From: a virus
Length of the DNA: 33,727 nucleotides
IMG/VR virus record: IMGVR_UViG_3300034066_002435
Span: 1-33,727 of that record
Reading direction: 5' to 3' (one strand)
The position numbers were made by a program, and so were the translations under genes. Each line of letters starts with the position of its first letter. Positions within the stretch are counted from its first letter, which is position 1. Positions 1-21,569 of the stretch are shown one piece after another. The notes beneath the pieces are model-generated. The model was not told where the DNA came from. It was given only the letters and a program-made list of their open reading frames with translations, and did no database searches.

Positions 1-95
1 TCATTGGGAGACAGCATCCCATAGTTTTCATAGTACATCGCAGGCTCCTTTGCCCACATATTTTGTTGCCCGTGTTCATTAGTCGTTACAGTCAT
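1..95 (-). CDS. hli: High-light-inducible protein, N-terminal part (runs off the left edge)
   Basis: Only the first 31 codons are in the window, starting at the ATG at 95-93. The peptide begins MTVTTNEHGQQNMWAKEP and continues to YYENYGMLSPN. This Asn-Glu-(His/Tyr)-Gly-Gln opening followed by an AKEP stretch is typical of cyanophage high-light-inducible (Hli) proteins. The chlorophyll-binding helix that would confirm it lies outside the window. Family knowledge: Hli proteins are one-helix thylakoid proteins that bind chlorophyll and carotenoid and protect photosystem II during infection. A strong host-type promoter lies 27-55 bases upstream, with its -35 box in the loop of the porin terminator. 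No clear Shine-Dalgarno is visible. The assignment is likely but rests on the N-terminus alone. Confidence 0.65.
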   Translation of the reverse strand, partial: MTVTTNEHGQQNMWAKEPAMYYENYGMLSPN

Positions 96-121
96 TATGA
101 TTTGTAAAGATTTACAACAAT

Positions 122-150
122 AGTATATATGAAAAAAGAGGGTCTGTCAA
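122..150 (-). promoter_or_regulatory. Host-type sigma-70 promoter of hli
   Basis: TTGACA (150-145), 17-base spacer, TATACT (127-122) on the minus strand, reading toward the hli start at 95. The -35 hexamer is exactly the six-base loop of the porin terminator hairpin, so terminator and promoter share the same bases. Confidence 0.75.
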
Positions 151-159
151 GACCCTCTT
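132..159 (-). terminator. Rho-independent terminator of the porin gene
   Basis: Nine-base-pair perfect stem (151-159 with 136-144 on the minus strand: AAGAGGGTC / GACCCTCTT), six-base loop TTGACA, then a U run at 137-132. It lies 27 bases after the porin stop codon. The reverse orientation has no U run, so it should work only for minus-strand transcripts. Confidence 0.85.
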
Positions 160-186: not shown

Positions 187-1653
187 TCAGAACTTAAAGG
201 TAGTCTGGATTACACCACCCCAGTTAGAAGAGTTATCAGCAAGACGCTGATTATCGCTAGCATAGAAGATAGCGGGAGTGATGCTGATGTTGTCAGATAC
301 TTGATACTTATAGAAGATTTCAAGCATCGTTGATTTTTCTAGATCTTCACCAGTAGGTGCTTGACCGATAGCAACACCAGCAGAGTTACCATCAACAAAT
401 ACATCTTCCCACTGAAGACCAGCAAACCAAGACTGACTGTTGGTAGCATCGCTAGGAGTACCACTTACAGTATTCCAACCATAACCAGCAGAGATGGAAG
501 GTGCCCAACCAGATTGAGTGGGTTGCCAGTATGCGTTGATAGCATAACCGTTAGAGGTTTGACCAGGAACCAGAGTACCAGAAGCACCGTTCAGACCGTT
601 ATAGGTACGGACACGGGTGCCTTCAGTACCATAACGGTAACCAAATGCAGCACCCCAGTTAGTACCACGATAACCGATTTGTGCCAGGGTGTTGAGAGCA
701 CCAGAACGATCAAATTCCCCAGTTGCACTATCGCTACCATTTTGGGCAACATAGTTTACACCAGCAACAAGACCTTTTTTGCCGTACTGAACACCGAAAC
801 CAGAACCAGTTGCCTTGTTATAAACACCAGGAGTACCAGCAACTTGGAAGAAGTCAAGAATGTTGGACTTGTAAGCAGTAGGCAACCAAGCAATCTCAGT
901 ATTACGAACAAGAGCACCAGCAGTAAGAGTGGTGGTGTTATTGAACGCAGGGAACTGATAGAACAGACGGTCGATAACTACGTTGTTACCAACTTCACTT
1001 ACAGTGTTGTCTGCTTTGTCCAGTTTGAATACTGAAGAACTAGAACCAAAAGGATTGCTGCTGAAGTTAGATGAACGCAGACGAGTACGAAGAAGATCCT
1101 TACCAGTAAACGAAGTATCCAGATTCAGACGCAGATCATAGTTGAATGCAGTACGAGTTGCATCACCATCTTTGGTTTGATAATCATCAACACCACCGAT
1201 CACAAAGTTTGCTTCACCACGCAGTTTAGTAGTGGTGGAGAATTGTTGTGCCTCAAGTGTAGTAACTTGTGCTTCCAGTTTATCTACACGACCACGAAGA
1301 ACAGCAAGTTCTTGTGCAAATTCTGCCTGAAGACGCTTCAGTTCATCAGTAACTTCGGTCACACGATCAAGGCAAGCATTCAGAAGTGCTGCTGCCTCAT
1401 AACGGGTCATCGCTTTACCACCACCAAAGGTGCCGTTAGGATAACCAGCAACGCAACCATAACGCTCTACGAGGTTGCTGAGTGCCTGATATGCCCAATC
1501 GGTAGGTTGAACATCAGAGAATTGAGTAACGCTTGTAACCTGCTCAGAAGAGTATTGGTTGACTGCTGCCATATTCAGATCTGCGGCATTCGCAGCAACA
1601 GGAGCAACCATTCCCAGAGCAACAGGTGCAAGCATCAGTTGTTTGAGTTTCAT
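187..1653 (-). CDS. Cyanobacterial SLH-domain outer-membrane porin (Som/OprB-like)
   Basis: 488 residues. A signal peptide ending at ANAAD (residues about 1-24) is followed by an SLH domain at about 45-95 (FSDVQPTDWAYQAL, then VAGYPNGTFGGGKAMTRYEA), a coiled coil at about 96-137 and a long beta-barrel ending in Phe (TFKF), as in outer-membrane proteins. This is the architecture of the major outer-membrane porins of marine Synechococcus: the SLH domain anchors to peptidoglycan and the barrel spans the outer membrane for solute or ion uptake. Length is normal for the family and the reading frame is intact. The gene is monocistronic, with a composite promoter upstream (1725-1759) and a strong terminator downstream. 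Capture from a host is the likely origin. Its role, whether sustaining nutrient or iron uptake or changing the host surface, is inference. Confidence 0.9.
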   Translation of the reverse strand: MKLKQLMLAPVALGMVAPVAANAADLNMAAVNQYSSEQVTSVTQFSDVQPTDWAYQALSNLVERYGCVAGYPNGTFGGGKAMTRYEAAALLNACLDRVTEVTDELKRLQAEFAQELAVLRGRVDKLEAQVTTLEAQQFSTTTKLRGEANFVIGGVDDYQTKDGDATRTAFNYDLRLNLDTSFTGKDLLRTRLRSSNFSSNPFGSSSSVFKLDKADNTVSEVGNNVVIDRLFYQFPAFNNTTTLTAGALVRNTEIAWLPTAYKSNILDFFQVAGTPGVYNKATGSGFGVQYGKKGLVAGVNYVAQNGSDSATGEFDRSGALNTLAQIGYRGTNWGAAFGYRYGTEGTRVRTYNGLNGASGTLVPGQTSNGYAINAYWQPTQSGWAPSISAGYGWNTVSGTPSDATNSQSWFAGLQWEDVFVDGNSAGVAIGQAPTGEDLEKSTMLEIFYKYQVSDNISITPAIFYASDNQRLADNSSNWGGVIQTTFKF

Positions 1654-16569: not shown

Positions 16570-16587
16570 AAAGTAAGATTTTATGAG

Positions 16588-16661
16588 TCGGGCATAAAGG
16601 ATTTGAACCTTTGACCTTTCCGCCCCAAACGGAACGCGCTACCAAACTGCGCTAATGCCCG
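16588..16661 (-). tRNA. tRNA-Pro (anticodon UGG), copy 1
   Basis: Cloverleaf with acceptor CGGGCAT/ATGCCCG, discriminator A, anticodon loop TTTGGGG and T loop TTCAAAT. CCA is not encoded. A consensus promoter lies 25 bases upstream. A second tRNA-Pro with the same anticodon is at 21027. Its U8-A9-G10 forms the stop codon of a small gene overlapping its 5' end. Confidence 0.95.
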
Positions 16662-16777
16662 ATGTTTTTATTTTGATGCACAATCATTATACCCATTGCA
16701 GGTCCAAGTGTCAAGAGACAACCAATAACAAACAATGACCATTGATGGGTCAAAAGATATTCTACAATTTTTATCAT
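16652..16777 (-). CDS. Small putative membrane protein overlapping tRNA-Pro
   Basis: 41 residues, ATG at 16777 overlapping the TGA of the preceding gene (ATGA). It starts MIKIVEYLLTHQWSLF and carries one strong hydrophobic segment (SLFVIGCLLTLGPAMGIMIV). The stop is the TAG formed by U8-A9-G10 of tRNA-Pro. The reading frame runs through the tRNA-Pro promoter, which could be chance. Coupling and the clean transmembrane segment favour a real gene, but the evidence is limited. Confidence 0.45.
   Translation of the reverse strand: MIKIVEYLLTHQWSLFVIGCLLTLGPAMGIMIVHQNKNIGH
16686..16714 (-). promoter_or_regulatory. Consensus host-type promoter for tRNA-Pro and the Phd-like gene
   Basis: TTGACA (16714-16709), 17-base spacer, TATAAT (16691-16686): both hexamers are perfect matches to the sigma-70 consensus. 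It ends 25 bases before the tRNA. Confidence 0.9.
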
Positions 16778-17262
16778 ACAACAGAAACTGTTAATGTTCC
16801 ACCTTTAGATAATGCAAAAACATTCCTTGAGGAGTAATCATAAATTAGACTCCATTTTCCTGGGTTTAACGAATAAGTAGATCCATTACCTATTTGTGCC
16901 CAAGTTTTAGAACTATACATAATATCATTATAAAATTGATAACTCCATATATCTAAACTTTTTCCCGAAGCGGGAAATTGTCCATTCCTTAAAATAGATC
17001 TCCAAGTTACATAACTATTTGCTCCAGAATCTGCTAGAGAAGAAGGAGTTCCTCCATTAGTATCAGAATGACTAGAATATCCATTAACTACTTGACTTAT
17101 ATTTGCAGTACTTGGAACAGAGAAATTACCTTCAGTATTAGTAGGACAAGTAATTGCAAAATTAACTATACTTTTTATTGCTGTTGCATCATCAGCAGAA
17201 AAATTTACATTCCAAGCAAATCCTTCAGCGGGAGAAGACACAGATAAAGTTATAGTTGCCAT
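16774..17262 (-). CDS. Unknown phage protein, probably late and beta-rich
   Basis: 162 residues, start MATITLSVSSPAEGFAWNV. It is rich in Ser, Thr, Asn and Gly, with alternating beta-strand patterns and no signal peptide or transmembrane segment. The C-terminus KGGTLTVSVV ends in a strand. A perfect TATAAATA late promoter lies 27 bases before the ATG, suggesting late expression and perhaps a virion or tail-associated role. The composition resembles phage tail or head decoration proteins, but I recognise no family. The stop overlaps a following small gene by ATGA. Confidence 0.7.
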   Translation of the reverse strand: MATITLSVSSPAEGFAWNVNFSADDATAIKSIVNFAITCPTNTEGNFSVPSTANISQVVNGYSSHSDTNGGTPSSLADSGANSYVTWRSILRNGQFPASGKSLDIWSYQFYNDIMYSSKTWAQIGNGSTYSLNPGKWSLIYDYSSRNVFALSKGGTLTVSVV

Positions 17263-17287
17263 AATATTTCAATTAATTTATTTTTGT

Positions 17288-17377
17288 TTATTTATAATAA
17301 GAGTGAGTAAGTCCCCAGAAAATAAAAAAACCAATAGTACTAAAAATAATTATAGCGTTATATATTGTTTTAGTCAT
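17288..17377 (-). CDS. Very small putative single-span membrane protein
   Basis: 29 residues, ATG at 17377, four bases after the stop of the preceding gene. MTKTIYNAIIIFSTIGFF followed by IFWGLTHSYYK is a short positively charged head, one membrane helix and a polar tail. The end of the gene (TATTATAAATAA) overlaps the late promoter of the next gene. Short length limits certainty. Confidence 0.45.
   Translation of the reverse strand: MTKTIYNAIIIFSTIGFFIFWGLTHSYYK
17289..17296 (-). promoter_or_regulatory. Late promoter TATAAATA
   Basis: Perfect TATAAATA on the minus strand, 27 bases before the ATG of the gene at 16774-17262. It matches the T4/cyanophage late consensus NATAAATA. Confidence 0.75.
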
Positions 17378-17381
17378 TTTT

Positions 17382-17585
17382 TCAATTTAATGTTATTTTC
17401 ATCCAAGAAAATAGTGGAGGAATAACTCCAACTAATCTCAAAAGTCCCTCAGCAAATAAAGCAAGAACCACCCAACCGACGCACATACTAATGATAGAAG
17501 CATTACGGTTGTGTCGTCGTATTGCTGCATCAATCATCTCCTGAACTTCTGTACGACTCACAAATTCATCATAAGAATCCATCAT
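17382..17585 (-). CDS. Small membrane protein of unknown function
   Basis: 67 residues. The N-terminal part is charged and helical (SRTEVQEMIDAAIRRHNRNA), followed by one long hydrophobic stretch from about 29 to 61 (IISMCVGWVVLALFAEGL, then LRLVGVIPPLF). The ATG overlaps the upstream TGA (ATGATGG), so it is coupled to the 49-residue gene before it. A holin-like or regulatory membrane role cannot be decided. No family recognised. Confidence 0.6.
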   Translation of the reverse strand: MMDSYDEFVSRTEVQEMIDAAIRRHNRNASIISMCVGWVVLALFAEGLLRLVGVIPPLFSWMKITLN

Positions 17586-17731
17586 TTTTCATCGCCAAGA
17601 AACTTTGCAAGAGGATCTCTTCTAGTTTTAACAATTTCAACTGCTCTCTTATAGAACATATTATCAGTATTACCAGAGGATTCAAAAGTCTCCTTGATCT
17701 TCACCCAATTATTATAGGTGTGCTGATCCAT
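17582..17731 (-). CDS. Small basic protein of unknown function
   Basis: 49 residues, start MDQHTYNNWVKIKETFE, end KTRRDPLAKFLGDEK. It is predicted mostly helical and slightly basic. The pattern of NNWVKIKETFE followed by FYKRAVEIV reads like a conserved cyanophage small protein, but I have no name for it. It couples to the next gene by an ATGA overlap, which supports its being translated. No clear Shine-Dalgarno. Confidence 0.6.
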   Translation of the reverse strand: MDQHTYNNWVKIKETFESSGNTDNMFYKRAVEIVKTRRDPLAKFLGDEK

Positions 17732-17855
17732 TTTTTTCTATTCGTAGTACTACTATATACTAATCATAGAATTTTAAACGTCATCTAAATGTCAGTGTTT
17801 TGTAACACTAATATACAGAAACCGAAAGAAAGTATTAAATTTGTATTCTATGTAA

Positions 17856-17939
17856 CGGAAAGGGTGGGATTCGAACCCACGGTGCTACTAACACGCTTGT
17901 TTTCAAGACAAGTTCCTTAAACCACTCGGACACCTTTCC
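17856..17939 (-). tRNA. tRNA-Ser (anticodon UGA)
   Basis: Class II cloverleaf with acceptor GGAAAGG/CCTTTCC, anticodon stem CTTGT/ACAAG around loop CTTGAAA, a long variable arm, T loop TTCGAAT and discriminator G. CCA is not encoded. Confidence 0.95.
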
Positions 17940-17950
17940 AAATTAAGTCC

Positions 17951-18202
17951 TTAGCGGACTTCAAAATCAAGTCGTCTTACTTTACGTTGACGACGTGCTT
18001 CTTGCCAAGCAATATCTTGAGAAGTCAGCACACTTTTGTTTTGATTTTCTTTTAGAGAGTTTAGCATAACAATTCGAGATAAGTCAAGTGCCGAAATCTT
18101 GTCTCCACGAATTGTTGCCATATTGGGACATCCACACGTTACCGTTTTTGATGGATGTCCTAGTAATTCTTTATTACAATCTTTGCATCTTATTGACAAC
18201 AT
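17951..18202 (-). CDS. Small zinc-ribbon-like protein
   Basis: 83 residues. CKDC (residues 6-9) and CGCP (about 23-26) give a four-Cys zinc-ribbon-like site in the first 30 residues. The rest is helical and basic, ending RRQRKVRRLDFEVR. Such proteins bind nucleic acid or act as protein adaptors; no specific function can be assigned. An AATAAATA late-type box lies 36-43 bases before the ATG, at the 3' edge of tRNA-Val. The gene sits between tRNA-Val and tRNA-Ser. Confidence 0.65.
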   Translation of the reverse strand: MLSIRCKDCNKELLGHPSKTVTCGCPNMATIRGDKISALDLSRIVMLNSLKENQNKSVLTSQDIAWQEARRQRKVRRLDFEVR

Positions 18203-18237
18203 TATTTTAAACCCTATTCATTCTCATCAATATAATT

Positions 18238-18245
18238 TATTTATT
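18238..18245 (-). promoter_or_regulatory. Probable late promoter AATAAATA
   Basis: AATAAATA on the minus strand immediately after tRNA-Val and 36 bases before the zinc-ribbon gene start. It fits the NATAAATA consensus. The AT-rich context makes chance occurrence possible. Confidence 0.5.
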
Positions 18246-18246
18246 A

Positions 18247-18318
18247 TGGGCAATATCGGATTCGAACCAATGACTTACTGCTTGTAAGGCAGCCACTCTA
18301 CCGCTGAGTTAATCGCCC
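18247..18318 (-). tRNA. tRNA-Val (anticodon UAC)
   Basis: Acceptor GGGCGAT/ATTGCCC, D stem ACTC/GAGT, anticodon loop CTTACAA in stem GCTGC/GCAGT, T loop TTCGAAT, discriminator A. Confidence 0.93.
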
Positions 18319-18321
18319 TTG

Positions 18322-18443
18322 ATGAGTAGTGAGTGCCCACCACTCGCGGAAGACACTCTCCGCAACGAGCGGGGGTGATCAAGTCCCCGACCTAAGAAAA
18401 CTTAGGATTTAGAGGAAGTCCCAGACATTTCCAGACCTTCCAA
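18322..18443 (-). ncRNA. Structured spacer of unknown function between tRNA-Asn and tRNA-Val
   Basis: About 120 bases without a credible gene but full of local hairpins on the minus strand: GGAAG/CTTCC, CCTAAG-TTTT-CTTAGG, GGGG/CCCC around ACTTGATCA, GCGGA/TCCGC around GAGTGTCT, and a near-perfect GAGTGGT/ACTACTC. It has no tRNA T-arm signature and no known motif that I recognise. It could be a structured small RNA or an array of processing hairpins. Confidence 0.4.
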
Positions 18444-18516
18444 CTGGGGCGGCAGGGATCGAACCTGCGACCTAGATGTTAACAGCATCCCGCTACTACC
18501 GCTGAGCTACACCCCA
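18444..18516 (-). tRNA. tRNA-Asn (anticodon GUU)
   Basis: Acceptor TGGGGTG/CGCCCCA with one T-G pair, anticodon loop CTGTTAA, T loop TTCGATC, discriminator G. The 5' ten bases overlap the end of the HNH gene, whose stop TAG is U8-A9-G10 of this tRNA. Confidence 0.93.
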
Positions 18517-18809
18517 TTACGTTGTTCATCGTGTATTTCTCGATGGCAGTTAGCACATACAAGAATACATTTATCTGCTTCTACTTTTTGTTTTTCTATG
18601 GCAACAGTGGTTCCAAGGTTTTTGGATTCCTTGGTAGTGGGATCGAGATGGTGGAACTCTAAGGCAGCGATACACTTATCGTATCCACAACGTTCACACT
18701 TACCACCTTTATATTCTACTAGAAGAAGTTTGTTTTGCTTACGTCTTTTGATGACGCTTGCTTTATTTGCTTCTCTACGATCAGCATACGTTCTAGTTTC
18801 TTTTGTCAT
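18507..18809 (-). CDS. HNH endonuclease, tRNA-array associated
   Basis: 100 residues. CERCGYD (about 38-44) and VCANCHREIH (about 84-93) provide the four zinc-binding Cys residues. ALEFHHLDP (about 49-57) carries the catalytic His of the HNH motif. The N-terminus is basic (ADRREANKASVIKRRKQNK). The family nicks or cleaves DNA, and free-standing copies in phages often act as homing endonucleases. It has its own TATAAATA late promoter 28 bases before the ATG. The stop codon lies inside tRNA-Asn. Confidence 0.85.
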   Translation of the reverse strand: MTKETRTYADRREANKASVIKRRKQNKLLLVEYKGGKCERCGYDKCIAALEFHHLDPTTKESKNLGTTVAIEKQKVEADKCILVCANCHREIHDEQRNGV

Positions 18810-18836
18810 TTGGTAGAAGTTTTATTGTTCTACCAC

Positions 18837-18844
18837 TATTTATA
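18837..18844 (-). promoter_or_regulatory. Late promoter of the first HNH gene
   Basis: Perfect TATAAATA on the minus strand, 28 bases before the HNH ATG at 18809, in the short spacer after tRNA-Gly. Confidence 0.75.
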
Positions 18845-18860
18845 GAACCCGAAGGTTCAG

Positions 18861-18932
18861 AGCGGAATACCGGATTCGAACCGGTGACATCCAACTTGGA
18901 AGGATGGCGTTCTACCACTGAACTAATTCCGC
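18861..18932 (-). tRNA. tRNA-Gly (anticodon UCC)
   Basis: Acceptor GCGGAAT/ATTCCGC, D stem GTTC/GAAC, anticodon loop CTTCCAA, T loop TTCGAAT, discriminator U as in bacterial tRNA-Gly. One T-T mismatch in the anticodon stem (CCATC/GTTGG). Confidence 0.92.
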
Positions 18933-18942
18933 AGTTGAGACA

Positions 18943-18971
18943 ATCATAAACTATTTAAGTTTGATTGTCAA
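18943..18971 (-). promoter_or_regulatory. Host-type promoter for tRNA-Gly
   Basis: TTGACA (18971-18966), 17-base spacer, TATGAT (18948-18943). The start point would fall about 4 bases before tRNA-Gly. The -35 box begins one base after the 3' end of tRNA-Leu. Confidence 0.85.
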
Positions 18972-18972
18972 G

Positions 18973-19054
18973 TGCGAGAGAAGGGACTCGAACCCTTATA
19001 CCTTTCGGCATTGCTTTCTAAGAGCAACGTGGATACCAATTACACCACTCTCGC
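18973..19054 (-). tRNA. tRNA-Leu (anticodon UAG)
   Basis: Class II cloverleaf with acceptor GCGAGAG/CTCTCGC, anticodon stem TTGCT/AGCAA around CTTAGAA, a long variable arm, T loop TTCGAGT and discriminator A. Its first 15 bases are also the 3' end of the second HNH gene. Confidence 0.94.
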
Positions 19055-19507
19055 TAATGATTGTTTTGATGAGAATGTTTCTGTTTGTGAATGACAATTT
19101 GGACAAAGTAATCTCAAATTGCAGGGTCTATTATCATAACATTCTCCATTAATATGGTCAACTTGTAATCTTAATGGTTTATTATTCCAAGTAGAAGAAA
19201 CCCCACATTCAGAACAAAAATCACCTCTCTCTTCAACAAGTAATCTATGTAAAATACCTCTCTTACATTTCTTATCTTTATGAAGATAATATTTCTCTAA
19301 TGAAAGATGTTTATTTTGACCCCCACAAGTTCTTATCTTTGAAGTGTAGTCTGGTTTATAATTTGGAATCCACTCCTTAGTTCGAACACGAAGAGTATCA
19401 TATTTACAATTAAACTCAACACAAATATCTGTTGGAGATTTTTCTCCACTCAACAAAGATTTTATAATATATTCTTTGTTATTATCTAAATCTGTTCTTT
19501 TTCTCAT
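19040..19507 (-). CDS. HNH homing-type endonuclease overlapping tRNA-Leu
   Basis: 155 residues from the ATG at 19507; a TTG start at 19549 would extend it through the late promoter and is less likely. The N-terminal half is helix-rich (PTDICVEFNCKYDTLRVRTK looks like a helix-turn-helix). The zinc/HNH core is CSECG (about 102-106), LQVDHINGE with the catalytic Asp-His, and NLRLLCPNCHSQT. This is the arrangement of free-standing phage HNH homing endonucleases. A perfect TATAAATA box lies 21 bases upstream. The reading frame ends 15 bases inside tRNA-Leu, so the tRNA D-arm provides the stop. Confidence 0.85.
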   Translation of the reverse strand: MRKRTDLDNNKEYIIKSLLSGEKSPTDICVEFNCKYDTLRVRTKEWIPNYKPDYTSKIRTCGGQNKHLSLEKYYLHKDKKCKRGILHRLLVEERGDFCSECGVSSTWNNKPLRLQVDHINGECYDNRPCNLRLLCPNCHSQTETFSSKQSLARVV

Positions 19508-19527
19508 AATGGTAAACTTGCTAGTAT

Positions 19528-19535
19528 TATTTATA
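19528..19535 (-). promoter_or_regulatory. Late promoter of the second HNH gene
   Basis: Perfect TATAAATA on the minus strand, 21 bases before the ATG at 19507. Confidence 0.75.
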
Positions 19536-19560
19536 AGCGTATCTACCAATATTTGTGGTG

Positions 19561-19701
19561 GTAGGAGGGATCTCTATGTGCGGACAGAATCACCTTTTCC
19601 TTCATCTAGCGTAACCAGAGAGAGGGATTGCACTTCCTACGTTTTGATGGATTAAGTGTGATACACCTCATAAGGATGTAACAGTGACTTAACCTCTATC
19701 C
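19561..19701 (-). ncRNA. Candidate structured RNA downstream of a strong promoter
   Basis: About 140 bases, no convincing gene, immediately downstream of a near-consensus promoter (19708-19736). Two modules fold on the minus strand. The first is closed by eight pairs, GGTTAAGT/ACTTAATC (19694-19687 with 19657-19650), with an inner hairpin. The second is closed by GTAGGA/TCCTAC (19640-19635 with 19566-19561). Inside the second, GTGC/GCAC and TCTCT/AGAGA pairings cross each other, which would make a pseudoknot. Riboswitch-like or structured RNAs are known from cyanophages (for example the manA and wcaG motifs), but I cannot match this one by eye. It could also be the 5' leader of the second HNH gene. 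Confidence 0.4.
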
Positions 19702-19707
19702 TTTTAT

Positions 19708-19736
19708 ATAGTAACAAATTCAGAAGAATTTGTCAA
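19708..19736 (-). promoter_or_regulatory. Host-type promoter inside the tRNA array
   Basis: TTGACA (19736-19731), 17-base spacer, TACTAT (19713-19708), two bases after the tRNA-Trp 3' end and reading into the structured stretch at 19561-19701. Confidence 0.8.
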
Positions 19737-19737
19737 G

Positions 19738-19809
19738 CATTGGGATAGGGACTTGAACCCTAACTAAAAGTTTTGGAGACTCTCGTGCTACCAATTACAC
19801 CATCCCAAT
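19738..19809 (-). tRNA. tRNA-Trp (anticodon CCA)
   Basis: Acceptor ATTGGGA/TCCCAAT, anticodon loop CTCCAAA in stem AGAGT/ACTTT, T loop TTCAAGT, discriminator G as in bacterial tRNA-Trp. Confidence 0.85.
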
Positions 19810-19827
19810 AAAATTGGTTATAACCAA

Positions 19828-19901
19828 TACCGAAGGTGGGATTTGAACCCACAACATCCTGATTTTGAGTCAGGCACCTCTACCAGTTGGATTACTTCGG
19901 C
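19828..19901 (-). tRNA. tRNA with CAA anticodon, class I shape (nominally Leu)
   Basis: Acceptor GCCGAAG/CTTCGGT (G-T at the end), D stem ATCC/GAGGT-like, anticodon stem CCTGA/TCAGG around CTCAAAA, T loop TTCAAAT, discriminator A. The anticodon reads CAA (Leu UUG codon), but the variable loop has only about five bases, whereas bacterial tRNA-Leu is class II. The cloverleaf is sound; the identity is uncertain. Confidence 0.75.
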
Positions 19902-19904
19902 AAG

Positions 19905-19988
19905 TAGGAGTAGGGAGACTTGAACTCCCACGGGATTGCTCCCAGCAGATTTTAAGTCTGATGTGTCTACCGATTCCACCATACTCCC
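19905..19988 (-). tRNA. tRNA-Leu (anticodon UAA)
   Basis: Class II cloverleaf with acceptor GGGAGTA/TACTCCT, anticodon stem CAGA/TCTG around CTTAAAA, long variable arm, T loop TTCAAGT, discriminator A. Confidence 0.94.
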
Positions 19989-20012
19989 ATAAGGTAATCA
20001 AAGATTACCAAG

Positions 20013-20085
20013 TGCTCCTTGCGTGGATCGAACACGCCTCAGGCGAATTATGAGTTCGCTGCATTCACCAGATTGCTAAAGGAGC
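20013..20085 (-). tRNA. tRNA-Met (anticodon CAU), elongator-like
   Basis: Acceptor GCTCCTT/AAGGAGC, anticodon stem GCGAA/TTCGC around CTCATAA, T loop TTCGATC, discriminator A. It lacks the initiator features (C1-A72 mismatch, three G-C pairs in the anticodon stem). A lysidine-modified Ile tRNA cannot be excluded. Confidence 0.9.
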
Positions 20086-20089
20086 AAGG

Positions 20090-20161
20090 TAGGACTGCAG
20101 AGAATTGAACTCTGTTCACACCGTTATAAGCAGTGGGCCTTAACCAATAGGCGACAGTCCC
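20090..20161 (-). tRNA. tRNA-Ile (anticodon UAU)
   Basis: Acceptor GGGACTG/CAGTCCT, anticodon stem CACTG/CGGTG around CTTATAA, T loop TTCAATT, discriminator A. It reads AUA directly, a codon rare in hosts but useful for an AT-rich phage. Confidence 0.9.
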
Positions 20162-20179
20162 TTAACCCTTGACTCAATC

Positions 20180-20208
20180 ATCATAAGGCATCTGACCAAG
20201 AAAGTCAA
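20180..20208 (-). promoter_or_regulatory. Host-type promoter inside the tRNA array
   Basis: TTGACT (20208-20203), 17-base spacer, TATGAT (20185-20180), ending 19 bases before tRNA-Ile(UAU). Confidence 0.85.
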
Positions 20209-20237
20209 GTGCCTTGTGCCAGTTTGAAGACTGGCAG

Positions 20238-20311
20238 CGTCCTTTGAGAGATTCGAACTCCCGACACATAGGTTCGTAGCCTATTGCTCTGTTCCACTGA
20301 GCTAAAAGGAC
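20238..20311 (-). tRNA. tRNA-Arg (anticodon ACG)
   Basis: Acceptor GTCCTTT/AAAGGAC, D stem GCTC/GAGC, anticodon stem ATAGG/CCTAT around CTACGAA, T loop TTCGAAT, discriminator G. A34 would need conversion to inosine by the host TadA. Confidence 0.93.
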
Positions 20312-20317
20312 AAGAAA

Positions 20318-20489
20318 GGGGATTACTCCCCAGTTCGCTCAAAGTGCTATTGCTCAAACGGCAACAGCAGTTCTGCGGAAAGATACGATGTTGTTGAGAT
20401 TTATTCTCGGAACCCTCTGCCCAGTCGAATACCAGTTCATCCCCGAGAATGGAGATGTGGGGAGTCGAACCCCAGTGTTGGACAGATTG
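20318..20489 (-). ncRNA. ssrA: Circularly permuted (two-piece type) tmRNA
   Basis: On the minus strand the acceptor piece comes first: P2 strand TCTGTCCA (20486-20479), T arm TGGGG-TTCGACT-CCCCA, acceptor strand CATCTCC (20457-20451) and discriminator A. A five-base linker (TTCTC) leads to the coding piece, starting GGGGATG (20444-20438), then CTGGTATTCGACTGGGCAGA. GGGGATG pairs with CATCTCC over seven bases, and TGGGCAGA pairs with TCTGTCCA over eight (P2). A tag reading frame follows: NNIVSFRRTAVAV and stop TGA (20395-20354), optionally preceded by Leu (CTC). The stop lies in the loop of an eight-base-pair P5-like helix, GCTGTTGC/GCAATAGC. The tag resembles the cyanobacterial tags beginning ANNIV. 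tmRNA with SmpB frees stalled ribosomes. The 5' and 3' ends given are approximate; a hairpin (20490-20508) separates it from tRNA-Gln. Confidence 0.88.
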
Positions 20490-20508
20490 TTGCCCCTAGT
20501 AGGAGCAA

Positions 20509-20580
20509 TTCCAGAACTAGGATTCGAACCTAGACGTACACCTTCAAAGGGTGCTGACCTGCCAGTTAGTCGATTCTGGA
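20509..20580 (-). tRNA. tRNA-Gln (anticodon UUG)
   Basis: Acceptor TCCAGAA/TTCTGGA, anticodon stem GCACC/GGTGT around CTTTGAA, T loop TTCGAAT, discriminator A. Confidence 0.92.
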
Positions 20581-20615
20581 TTGTATGAACTATCTGGAAG
20601 TTCCGGATAGTTGAG

Positions 20616-20686
20616 AGCCCAATAACAGAATTGAACTGTTCTCTGCAGTTTACTAAACTGCTGCATCACCACAATGCTTATCGGGC
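20616..20686 (-). tRNA. Atypical tRNA with AGU anticodon (nominally Thr)
   Basis: Acceptor GCCCGAT/ATTGGGC, D stem GCAT/ATGC, anticodon stem GCAGT/ACTGC around TTAGTAA, T loop TTCAATT, discriminator U. Position 8 is A instead of the nearly invariant U, and AGU is a rare bacterial anticodon. It could be a degenerating gene or one with altered identity. Confidence 0.65.
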
Positions 20687-20688
20687 GG

Positions 20689-20761
20689 GGTGTACGATCG
20701 GATTTGAACCGACATAAACCAGTTCCACAAACTGGAGCATTAACCATTATGCTACGTACAC
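20689..20761 (-). tRNA. tRNA-His (anticodon GUG)
   Basis: Acceptor GTGTACG/CGTACAC, anticodon stem CCAGT/ACTGG around TTGTGGA, T loop TTCAAAT, discriminator C. The base before G1 is T, so the extra G-1 usual in bacterial tRNA-His is not encoded. Confidence 0.92.
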
Positions 20762-20762
20762 A

Positions 20763-20834
20763 AGGCAGTGGGTAGAATTGAACTACCGACATAGAGGGTA
20801 TGAATCTCTTGTTCTACCACTGAACTACACTGCC
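20763..20834 (-). tRNA. Second tRNA with CAU anticodon (Met or Ile2)
   Basis: Acceptor GGCAGTG/CACTGCC, D stem GTTC/GAAC, anticodon loop TTCATAC in a stem with an A-C mismatch next to the loop, T loop TTCAATT, discriminator U. Discriminator and D arm resemble tRNA-Gly. The amino-acid identity (Met, or Ile after lysidine modification) is unclear. Confidence 0.8.
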
Positions 20835-20838
20835 GAGG

Positions 20839-20927
20839 CGGAAGTGGTTGGATTCGAACCAACGGTGCCTATTACTAGACACGGAATCTTAGCAGGATTC
20901 TGCGATAAGCCTCTCTGCCACACTTCC
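20839..20927 (-). tRNA. tRNA-Ser (anticodon GCU)
   Basis: Class II cloverleaf with acceptor GGAAGTG/CACTTCC, anticodon stem GAATC/GATTC around CTGCTAA, long variable arm, T loop TTCGAAT, discriminator G. Confidence 0.94.
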
Positions 20928-20931
20928 TTAA

Positions 20932-20949
20932 TGTTACCTTAAGGTAACA
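20932..20949. repeat. Perfect inverted repeat between tRNA-Ile(GAU) and tRNA-Ser(GCU)
   Basis: TGTTACCTTAAGGTAACA is an 18-base perfect palindrome filling the tRNA spacer. Comparable short hairpins fill other spacers: 19813-19828, 19993-20009, 20217-20236, 20490-20508, 20588-20612 and 21401-21420. Confidence 0.7.
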
Positions 20950-20950
20950 A

Positions 20951-21023
20951 TGGAAACAACTGGACTCGAACCAGTGCTCTTTCGATTATCAGTCGAATGC
21001 TTTACCAACTAAGCTATGTTTCC
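20951..21023 (-). tRNA. tRNA-Ile (anticodon GAU)
   Basis: Acceptor GGAAACA/TGTTTCC, anticodon stem TTCGA/TCGAA around CTGATAA, T loop TTCGAGT, discriminator A. Confidence 0.94.
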
Positions 21024-21026
21024 TGG

Positions 21027-21100
21027 TCGGAATGACAGGATTCGAACCTGCGACCCTCTGTTCCCAAAACAGATGCGCTACCAAACTGCGCTACATTCCG
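21027..21100 (-). tRNA. tRNA-Pro (anticodon UGG), copy 2
   Basis: Acceptor CGGAATG/CATTCCG, anticodon stem TCTGT/ACAGA around TTTGGGA, T loop TTCGAAT, discriminator A. Same anticodon as the copy at 16588 but a different acceptor and anticodon stem, so it is not a recent duplicate. Confidence 0.94.
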
Positions 21101-21103
21101 TGG

Positions 21104-21175
21104 TAGTCCTAACGGGATTTGAACCCGTGTCTTCACTGTGAAAGAGTGATGTCCTCACCACTAGACGATAGGACC
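21104..21175 (-). tRNA. tRNA-Glu (anticodon UUC)
   Basis: Acceptor GGTCCTA/TAGGACT, anticodon stem TCACT/AGTGA around CTTTCAC, T loop TTCAAAT, discriminator A. Confidence 0.94.
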
Positions 21176-21223
21176 ATGATGCTACAACCACCAAGGAGGA
21201 ATACTCCACAGGCAGCGTAGCAA

Positions 21224-21297
21224 CGACCCATACGGGATTTGAACCCGTGTTCTCCACCGTGACAGGGTGGCGTGATTGACCGCTACACTAATGGGTC
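21224..21297 (-). tRNA. tRNA-Asp (anticodon GUC)
   Basis: Acceptor GACCCAT/ATGGGTC, anticodon stem CCACC/GGTGG around CTGTCAC, T loop TTCAAAT, discriminator G. Confidence 0.94.
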
Positions 21298-21301
21298 AAG
21301 G

Positions 21302-21383
21302 TGGGCAGGGAGGGATTTGAACCCCCGTAGGCAGAGCCAGTGGATTTACAGTCCACCTCCATTAACCACTCGGACACCTACCC
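21302..21383 (-). tRNA. tRNA-Tyr (anticodon GUA)
   Basis: Class II cloverleaf with acceptor GGGTAGG/CCTGCCC, anticodon stem GTGGA/TCCAC around CTGTAAA, variable arm, T loop TTCAAAT, discriminator A. Confidence 0.94.
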
Positions 21384-21421
21384 GAACAGTTTATGTTTAA
21401 TGACCGAACTGTAGCGGTCAA

Positions 21422-21494
21422 TGGGTCTGGTGGGACTCGAACCCACGATATACTGGTTAAAAGCCAGGTGCATTAGCCGCTATGCAACAGACCC
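21422..21494 (-). tRNA. tRNA-Lys (anticodon UUU)
   Basis: Acceptor GGGTCTG/CAGACCC, anticodon stem CTGG/CCAG around CTTTTAA, T loop TTCGAGT, discriminator A. First tRNA of the array in transcription order. Confidence 0.94.
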
Positions 21495-21569
21495 ATTAAA
21501 GGTTTAGATTGTCAAGGTGCTGGTGGTCTCTCAACCACCCTTTAAGAATACCACAGAACCCGTTGGGAA

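Follow-up and report, generated by a model that had tools for sequence, protein, structure and literature searches.

The DNA between a porin gene and the hli gene that follows it very probably forms a nested terminator-promoter, in which one structure would end the porin transcript and start that of hli. The element lies in a virus record of 33,727 bases (the window, i.e. the whole stretch of DNA that was analysed). Its anatomy, its conservation, the covariation of its stem, the association of loop sequence with promoter class and the mutual exclusion with separate terminators were all observed directly, and together they suggest that termination and initiation both take place at the element in infected cells. 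The initial annotation of this DNA had already assigned the two functions to one stretch, and the comparisons with relatives support that assignment well. The arrangement would be advantageous in that it insulates hli from the gene upstream with as little DNA as possible. Two codes, a sigma-factor DNA site and an RNA hairpin loop, are apparently held by selection on the same few bases.

Anatomy of the porin–hli junction

The junction contains the following features.

187..1653, minus strand: upstream gene, an OprB/SLH-type porin of 488 aa (ORF; Pfam OprB 1.3e-14, SLH 1.5e-9)
136..159, minus strand: predicted GC-rich terminator stem-loop, 10 bp with loop TGAC (or 9 bp with loop TTGACA) (predicted fold; stem covariation among relatives)
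145..150, minus strand: -35 hexamer TTGACA in the hairpin loop (sequence; conserved in relatives)
132..137, minus strand: terminator T-run, doubling as part of the promoter spacer (sequence)
122..127, minus strand: -10 hexamer TATACT, spacer 17 (sequence; position conserved in relatives)
102..117, minus strand: palindrome TTGTAAATCTTTACAA at the predicted hli start site and leader, predicted start near 115 (sequence; leader conserved)
1..95, minus strand: hli gene, start codon 95-93, truncated by the window edge (DNA similarity to hli of named cyanophages; full homologue L007:977-1168)

Both gene names of the initial annotation hold: OprB and SLH domains were found in the porin, and complete homologues of hli in L007 and L014 match phrog_178 'high light inducible protein', the usual cyanophage HLIP. 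The nearest named relatives of the window are Synechococcus myoviruses (Kyanoviridae), e.g. S-SRM01 with 79% identity over 12% of the first 25 kb. Past the porin stop codon the minus strand reads ...AACATTAAGAGGGTCTTGACAGACCCTCTTTTTTCATATATACTATTGTTGTAAATCTTTACAAATCATAATG, and the transcript of the porin gene would be the one terminated at the hairpin 136..159.

From 159 to 122 the minus strand consists of AAGAGGGTC TTGACA GACCCTCTT TTTTCATA TATACT. The spacing of 17 bases that had been given for the two hexamers is borne out (150-145 and 127-122), and the hli promoter has 11/12 consensus matches. The window holds two occurrences of TTGACA-N16-18-TATAMT in its 33.7 kb against 0.08 expected, and one copy of the nested element. 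The hairpin had been described as a nine-base-pair stem with the -35 box as exactly its six-base loop. A hairpin is indeed present, but the predicted RNA fold has a 10-bp stem and a UGAC tetraloop (-15.3 kcal/mol, z -4.67), in which the first T and the last A of TTGACA pair with each other, and these outer bases of the -35 probably close the loop. The identity of box and loop was therefore put slightly too strongly: the core TTGA stays in the loop, but in many relatives the sixth base of the -35 also lies in the stem. The T-run comprises six T's at 137-132, two of them inside the stem.

As RNA, the end of the porin transcript would fold into the GC-rich hairpin followed by U's, and polymerase would be released at about 131-135. 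As duplex DNA, the loop bases would serve as the -35, the 3' arm and T-run as the 17-bp spacer and TATACT as the -10, so that a host sigma70-type holoenzyme could bind -35 and -10 and start hli near 115; the leader would measure about 20 nt. Given the short distance between end and start, a polymerase that terminates here would cover the promoter, which it might simply occlude or else feed, and termination and initiation would therefore exclude each other on one template.

The palindrome at 102-117 is perfect (TTGTAAA-TC-TTTACAA), lies between the -10 and the hli start codon and could function as an operator or as a signal for translation. Relatives show strong conservation of the 25-nt hli leader, in two or three related forms (TTGTTGTAAATCTTTACAAA, TGTAACAATTCTTAACGAATTTACA), with no evident Shine-Dalgarno sequence. 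The P-HM2 transcriptome study places phage hli among the transcribed genes (PMC5082946).

Loop sequence and promoter class on a shared stem

We found the exact hairpin GAGGGTCTTGACAGACCCTC in 20 further viral contigs, and in every one of them a T-run and an AT-rich -10 come after it. The genes behind this identical 20-base hairpin vary and include hli, small phrog_878 genes and another gene in L019. A search for the same stem with any six-base loop, pooled with the contigs of the exact-hairpin search, yielded at least 88 distinct hairpins with a T-run; among the matches listed, CTTCGG, TTGACA, TTTCGA and CGAAAG are the commonest loops. Loop identity predicts the class of the downstream promoter. 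Among the matches listed, a -10 at 16-18 bp follows 16/16 hairpins with -35-like loops (TTGACA, TTGACG, TTTACA) versus 5/72 of the others (Fisher p = 1e-13), with TTGACA rows over-represented by the exact-hairpin search and the rates within each class unaffected by it. The T4-type late element (TAAATA) shows the reverse distribution, as it follows 0/16 of the -35-like loops versus 51/72 of the others among the matches listed (p = 9e-8). In these viral contigs the combination of terminator and late promoter (GAGGGTCCTTCGGGACCCTCTTTTTTTATCTAAATA and the like) shares with the porin–hli element the same stem, the T-run and a promoter directly downstream, but it has a stable tetraloop where TTGACA would be, and no part of the late element falls within the hairpin. 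The arrangement is stereotyped in L146, L153, L160, L163 and others, with the T-run abutting the late element of GAGGGTCCTTCGGGACCCTCTTTTTTTATCTAAATA.

The nesting could have a function of its own. A polymerase stopped at the T-run would already sit over the next -35 and -10 and could restart there, coupling a transcript end to the next start. By exchange of the loop (TTGACA for early, UUCG/GAAA-type with CTAAATA for late), one stem would become a standard cassette that confers early or late timing on the gene behind it. We regard this as rather unlikely. The element offers a simple system in which restart of a terminating polymerase at an overlapping promoter could be examined.

Conservation and covariation upstream of hli

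Two scans gave 160 hli loci, which together with nine named isolates provided 114 distinct upstream regions with enough flank. A sigma70-like promoter is present in 98 of these 114, and in 66 of the 98 the -35 is nested in a terminator-like hairpin (not nested: 32/98, about a third); the hli sequences are related, and these counts and the paired changes described below are not independent events. Paired substitutions alter the stem, yet the combination of -35, 17-bp spacing and hairpin persists. Loss of the TTGACA loop from close relatives would have spoken against a shared structure; L406, L407, L498, L510, L524 and others retain it. Six further hli relatives (L414, L519, L547, L549, L554, L560) keep the -10 and a T-run hairpin (GGGTGGGTTTCCACCC) with a loop that lacks the -35, possibly reflecting a lost or alternative hli promoter.

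The stems of nested hli hairpins vary (GGGGGTG/CACCCCT, AAAGGGGC/GCCCCTTT, AAGAGGGG/CCCCTCTT, AGGGGCG/CGCCCCT, GAGGGGAG/CTCCCCTT, TGGGGGT/GCCCCCA). In the commonest register (n = 28) the pair -2/6 is TA, GC, CG, AT or TG and is paired without exception. The final -35 base occupies position 6, so pairing is held even where this costs the consensus A. The first 46 anchored sequences form 34 strong hairpins; with their 5' arms swapped they form 22 on average (maximum 28 in 500).

T-runs stand behind nearly all nested hairpins. A separate upstream terminator was found in 0/66 nested versus 7/32 non-nested hli regions (p = 0.0002), so that the nested hairpin is absent where a separate terminator exists. 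The orientation of the upstream gene showed only a trend with nesting (64:2 versus 28:4, p = 0.09). Among isolates, S-CAM1, S-PM2 and Syn1 are nested at hli and have a co-directional gene close upstream. The hli promoter occurs without a hairpin in S-WAM2 and S-RSM4, which have a divergent neighbour, and in S-IOM18 and S-RIM8, which have a tRNA gene. S-ShM2 has neither hairpin nor divergent neighbour at hli and, like the non-nested third of hli promoters, counts against the nested reading; no such promoter was found at hli of S-SRM01 and B23. S-SSM5 and S-CAM8 have an hli promoter without nested hairpin and a terminator of their own. These two represent the ordinary tandem arrangement: the gene and the position of -35 and -10 relative to the start codon are the same as in the window, but the hli promoter lies well downstream of the terminator, which is a hairpin of its own. 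Taken together, regions and isolates fit a hairpin that would end the upstream transcript and a promoter that would drive hli.

These data bear on two other explanations. In the first, the promoter is real, but the main role of the hairpin is to shield the upstream RNA at its 3' end or to slow polymerase, without termination. Terminal hairpins do also protect RNA, and the T-run is interrupted in some relatives (e.g. TTTATTTTT or TTTATATTT). We nevertheless consider this improbable in view of the near-universal T-runs and the exclusion of separate terminators, and a further argument for termination is that this stem recurs before late promoters, there with long T-runs and loops of UUCG or GAAA type. 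In the second, the element is chiefly a mobile recombination cassette whose sequence is shared through phage recombination, with the nesting irrelevant to expression; promoter-early stem-loops (PeSLs) are reportedly proposed to be such cassettes and to mediate gene shuffling. The identical hairpin before different genes would fit, as would nested elements before the manA motif RNA. However, hli stems differ widely yet stay paired, which points to selection on structure, and the window has only the one copy, so that a cassette of this kind seems very improbable.

Wider surveys and known composite elements

In a sample of IMG/VR, sites of the form TTGACA-N6-9-T5-N2-5-TATA were collected and scored as nested when a stem of 5 bp or more enclosed the hexamer in its loop. 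Nesting was found at 24/122 viral sites versus a mean of 2.9 when the left flanks were permuted (maximum 9 in 500), and at 1/116 sites of the reversed-hexamer control ACAGTT (p = 6e-7). Cellular genomes gave 4/116, which is not above permutation (1.7, maximum 6); a general bacterial habit was therefore rejected. That an ordinary terminator merely happens to have a loop reading TTGACA near an AT-rich TATACT, with hli started elsewhere, is hardly credible: the window offers a single case and AT-rich phage DNA has frequent -35/-10 matches (at a loose threshold, 9.7 promoter-like sites are expected per 3 kb), but chance is contradicted by the enrichment over permuted, reversed-hexamer and cellular controls, by conservation in 66 hli upstream regions and in cultured phages and by the coupling of loop to promoter (16/16 versus 5/72 among the matches listed).

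Several nested viral sites lie on contigs with putative T4-type replication genes (clamp loader, gp46-like, DNA polymerase and RNase H, from reading of the translations), so the design is not confined to hli. The nested pattern was found in P-SSM2, S-CAM1, S-PM2, Syn1 and S-SSM5, and a search of phi1, T4 and KVP40 gave no match. As a sequence rule for cyanophages and other T4-type phages, it could serve to locate an early promoter and a transcript end at the same time. A nested terminator-promoter also directly precedes the manA motif RNA (RF01745) at L701 1500-1734 (P-SSM2), at L707 1500-1732 (S-SSM5) and in L124.

PeSLs are said to have been described, by Arbiol et al. in 2010 and Comeau in 2014, as composite promoter-terminator motifs of T4-type phages. 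They resemble the porin–hli element in combining, within a small intergenic space, an intrinsic terminator with a strong early promoter of sigma70 type that serves the next gene; both components, the sigma70-type promoter (11/12, spacer 17) and the terminator-type stem-loop, are present here. The geometry differs. The genome of RB49, which we take to be the type PeSL phage, contains 69 terminator-like hairpins, of which 12 have TTGACA within 40 bp downstream. TTGAC was found in the loop of none of the 69, with one weak GTGACA overlap at 60571. RB49 terminators have mostly UUCG/GAAA-type loops with TTGACA downstream of the T-run, whereas at porin–hli the loop itself constitutes the -35 and the promoter spacer contains the T-run. 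The plain PeSL geometry, with the promoter downstream of the hairpin, was thus rejected for this element. By its sequence, the porin–hli element would work like a PeSL, with a different and overlapping geometry. PMC4503421 has T4-type phages carrying PeSLs as composite promoter-terminator motifs. Our literature search, which covered sources other than the original PeSL papers, found no previous account of a terminator loop containing a -35; Comeau 2014 may already mention the nested form.

Rfam detected only tRNAs in the window. There are 23 tRNA genes at 16587-21495 on the minus strand, 18 of them packed in 18860-21495, and most amino acids are covered. A perfect 12/12 sigma70 promoter, TTGACA-N17-TATAAT, lies without a hairpin at 16686-16714 on the minus strand, just upstream of the tRNA-Pro gene 16661-16587.
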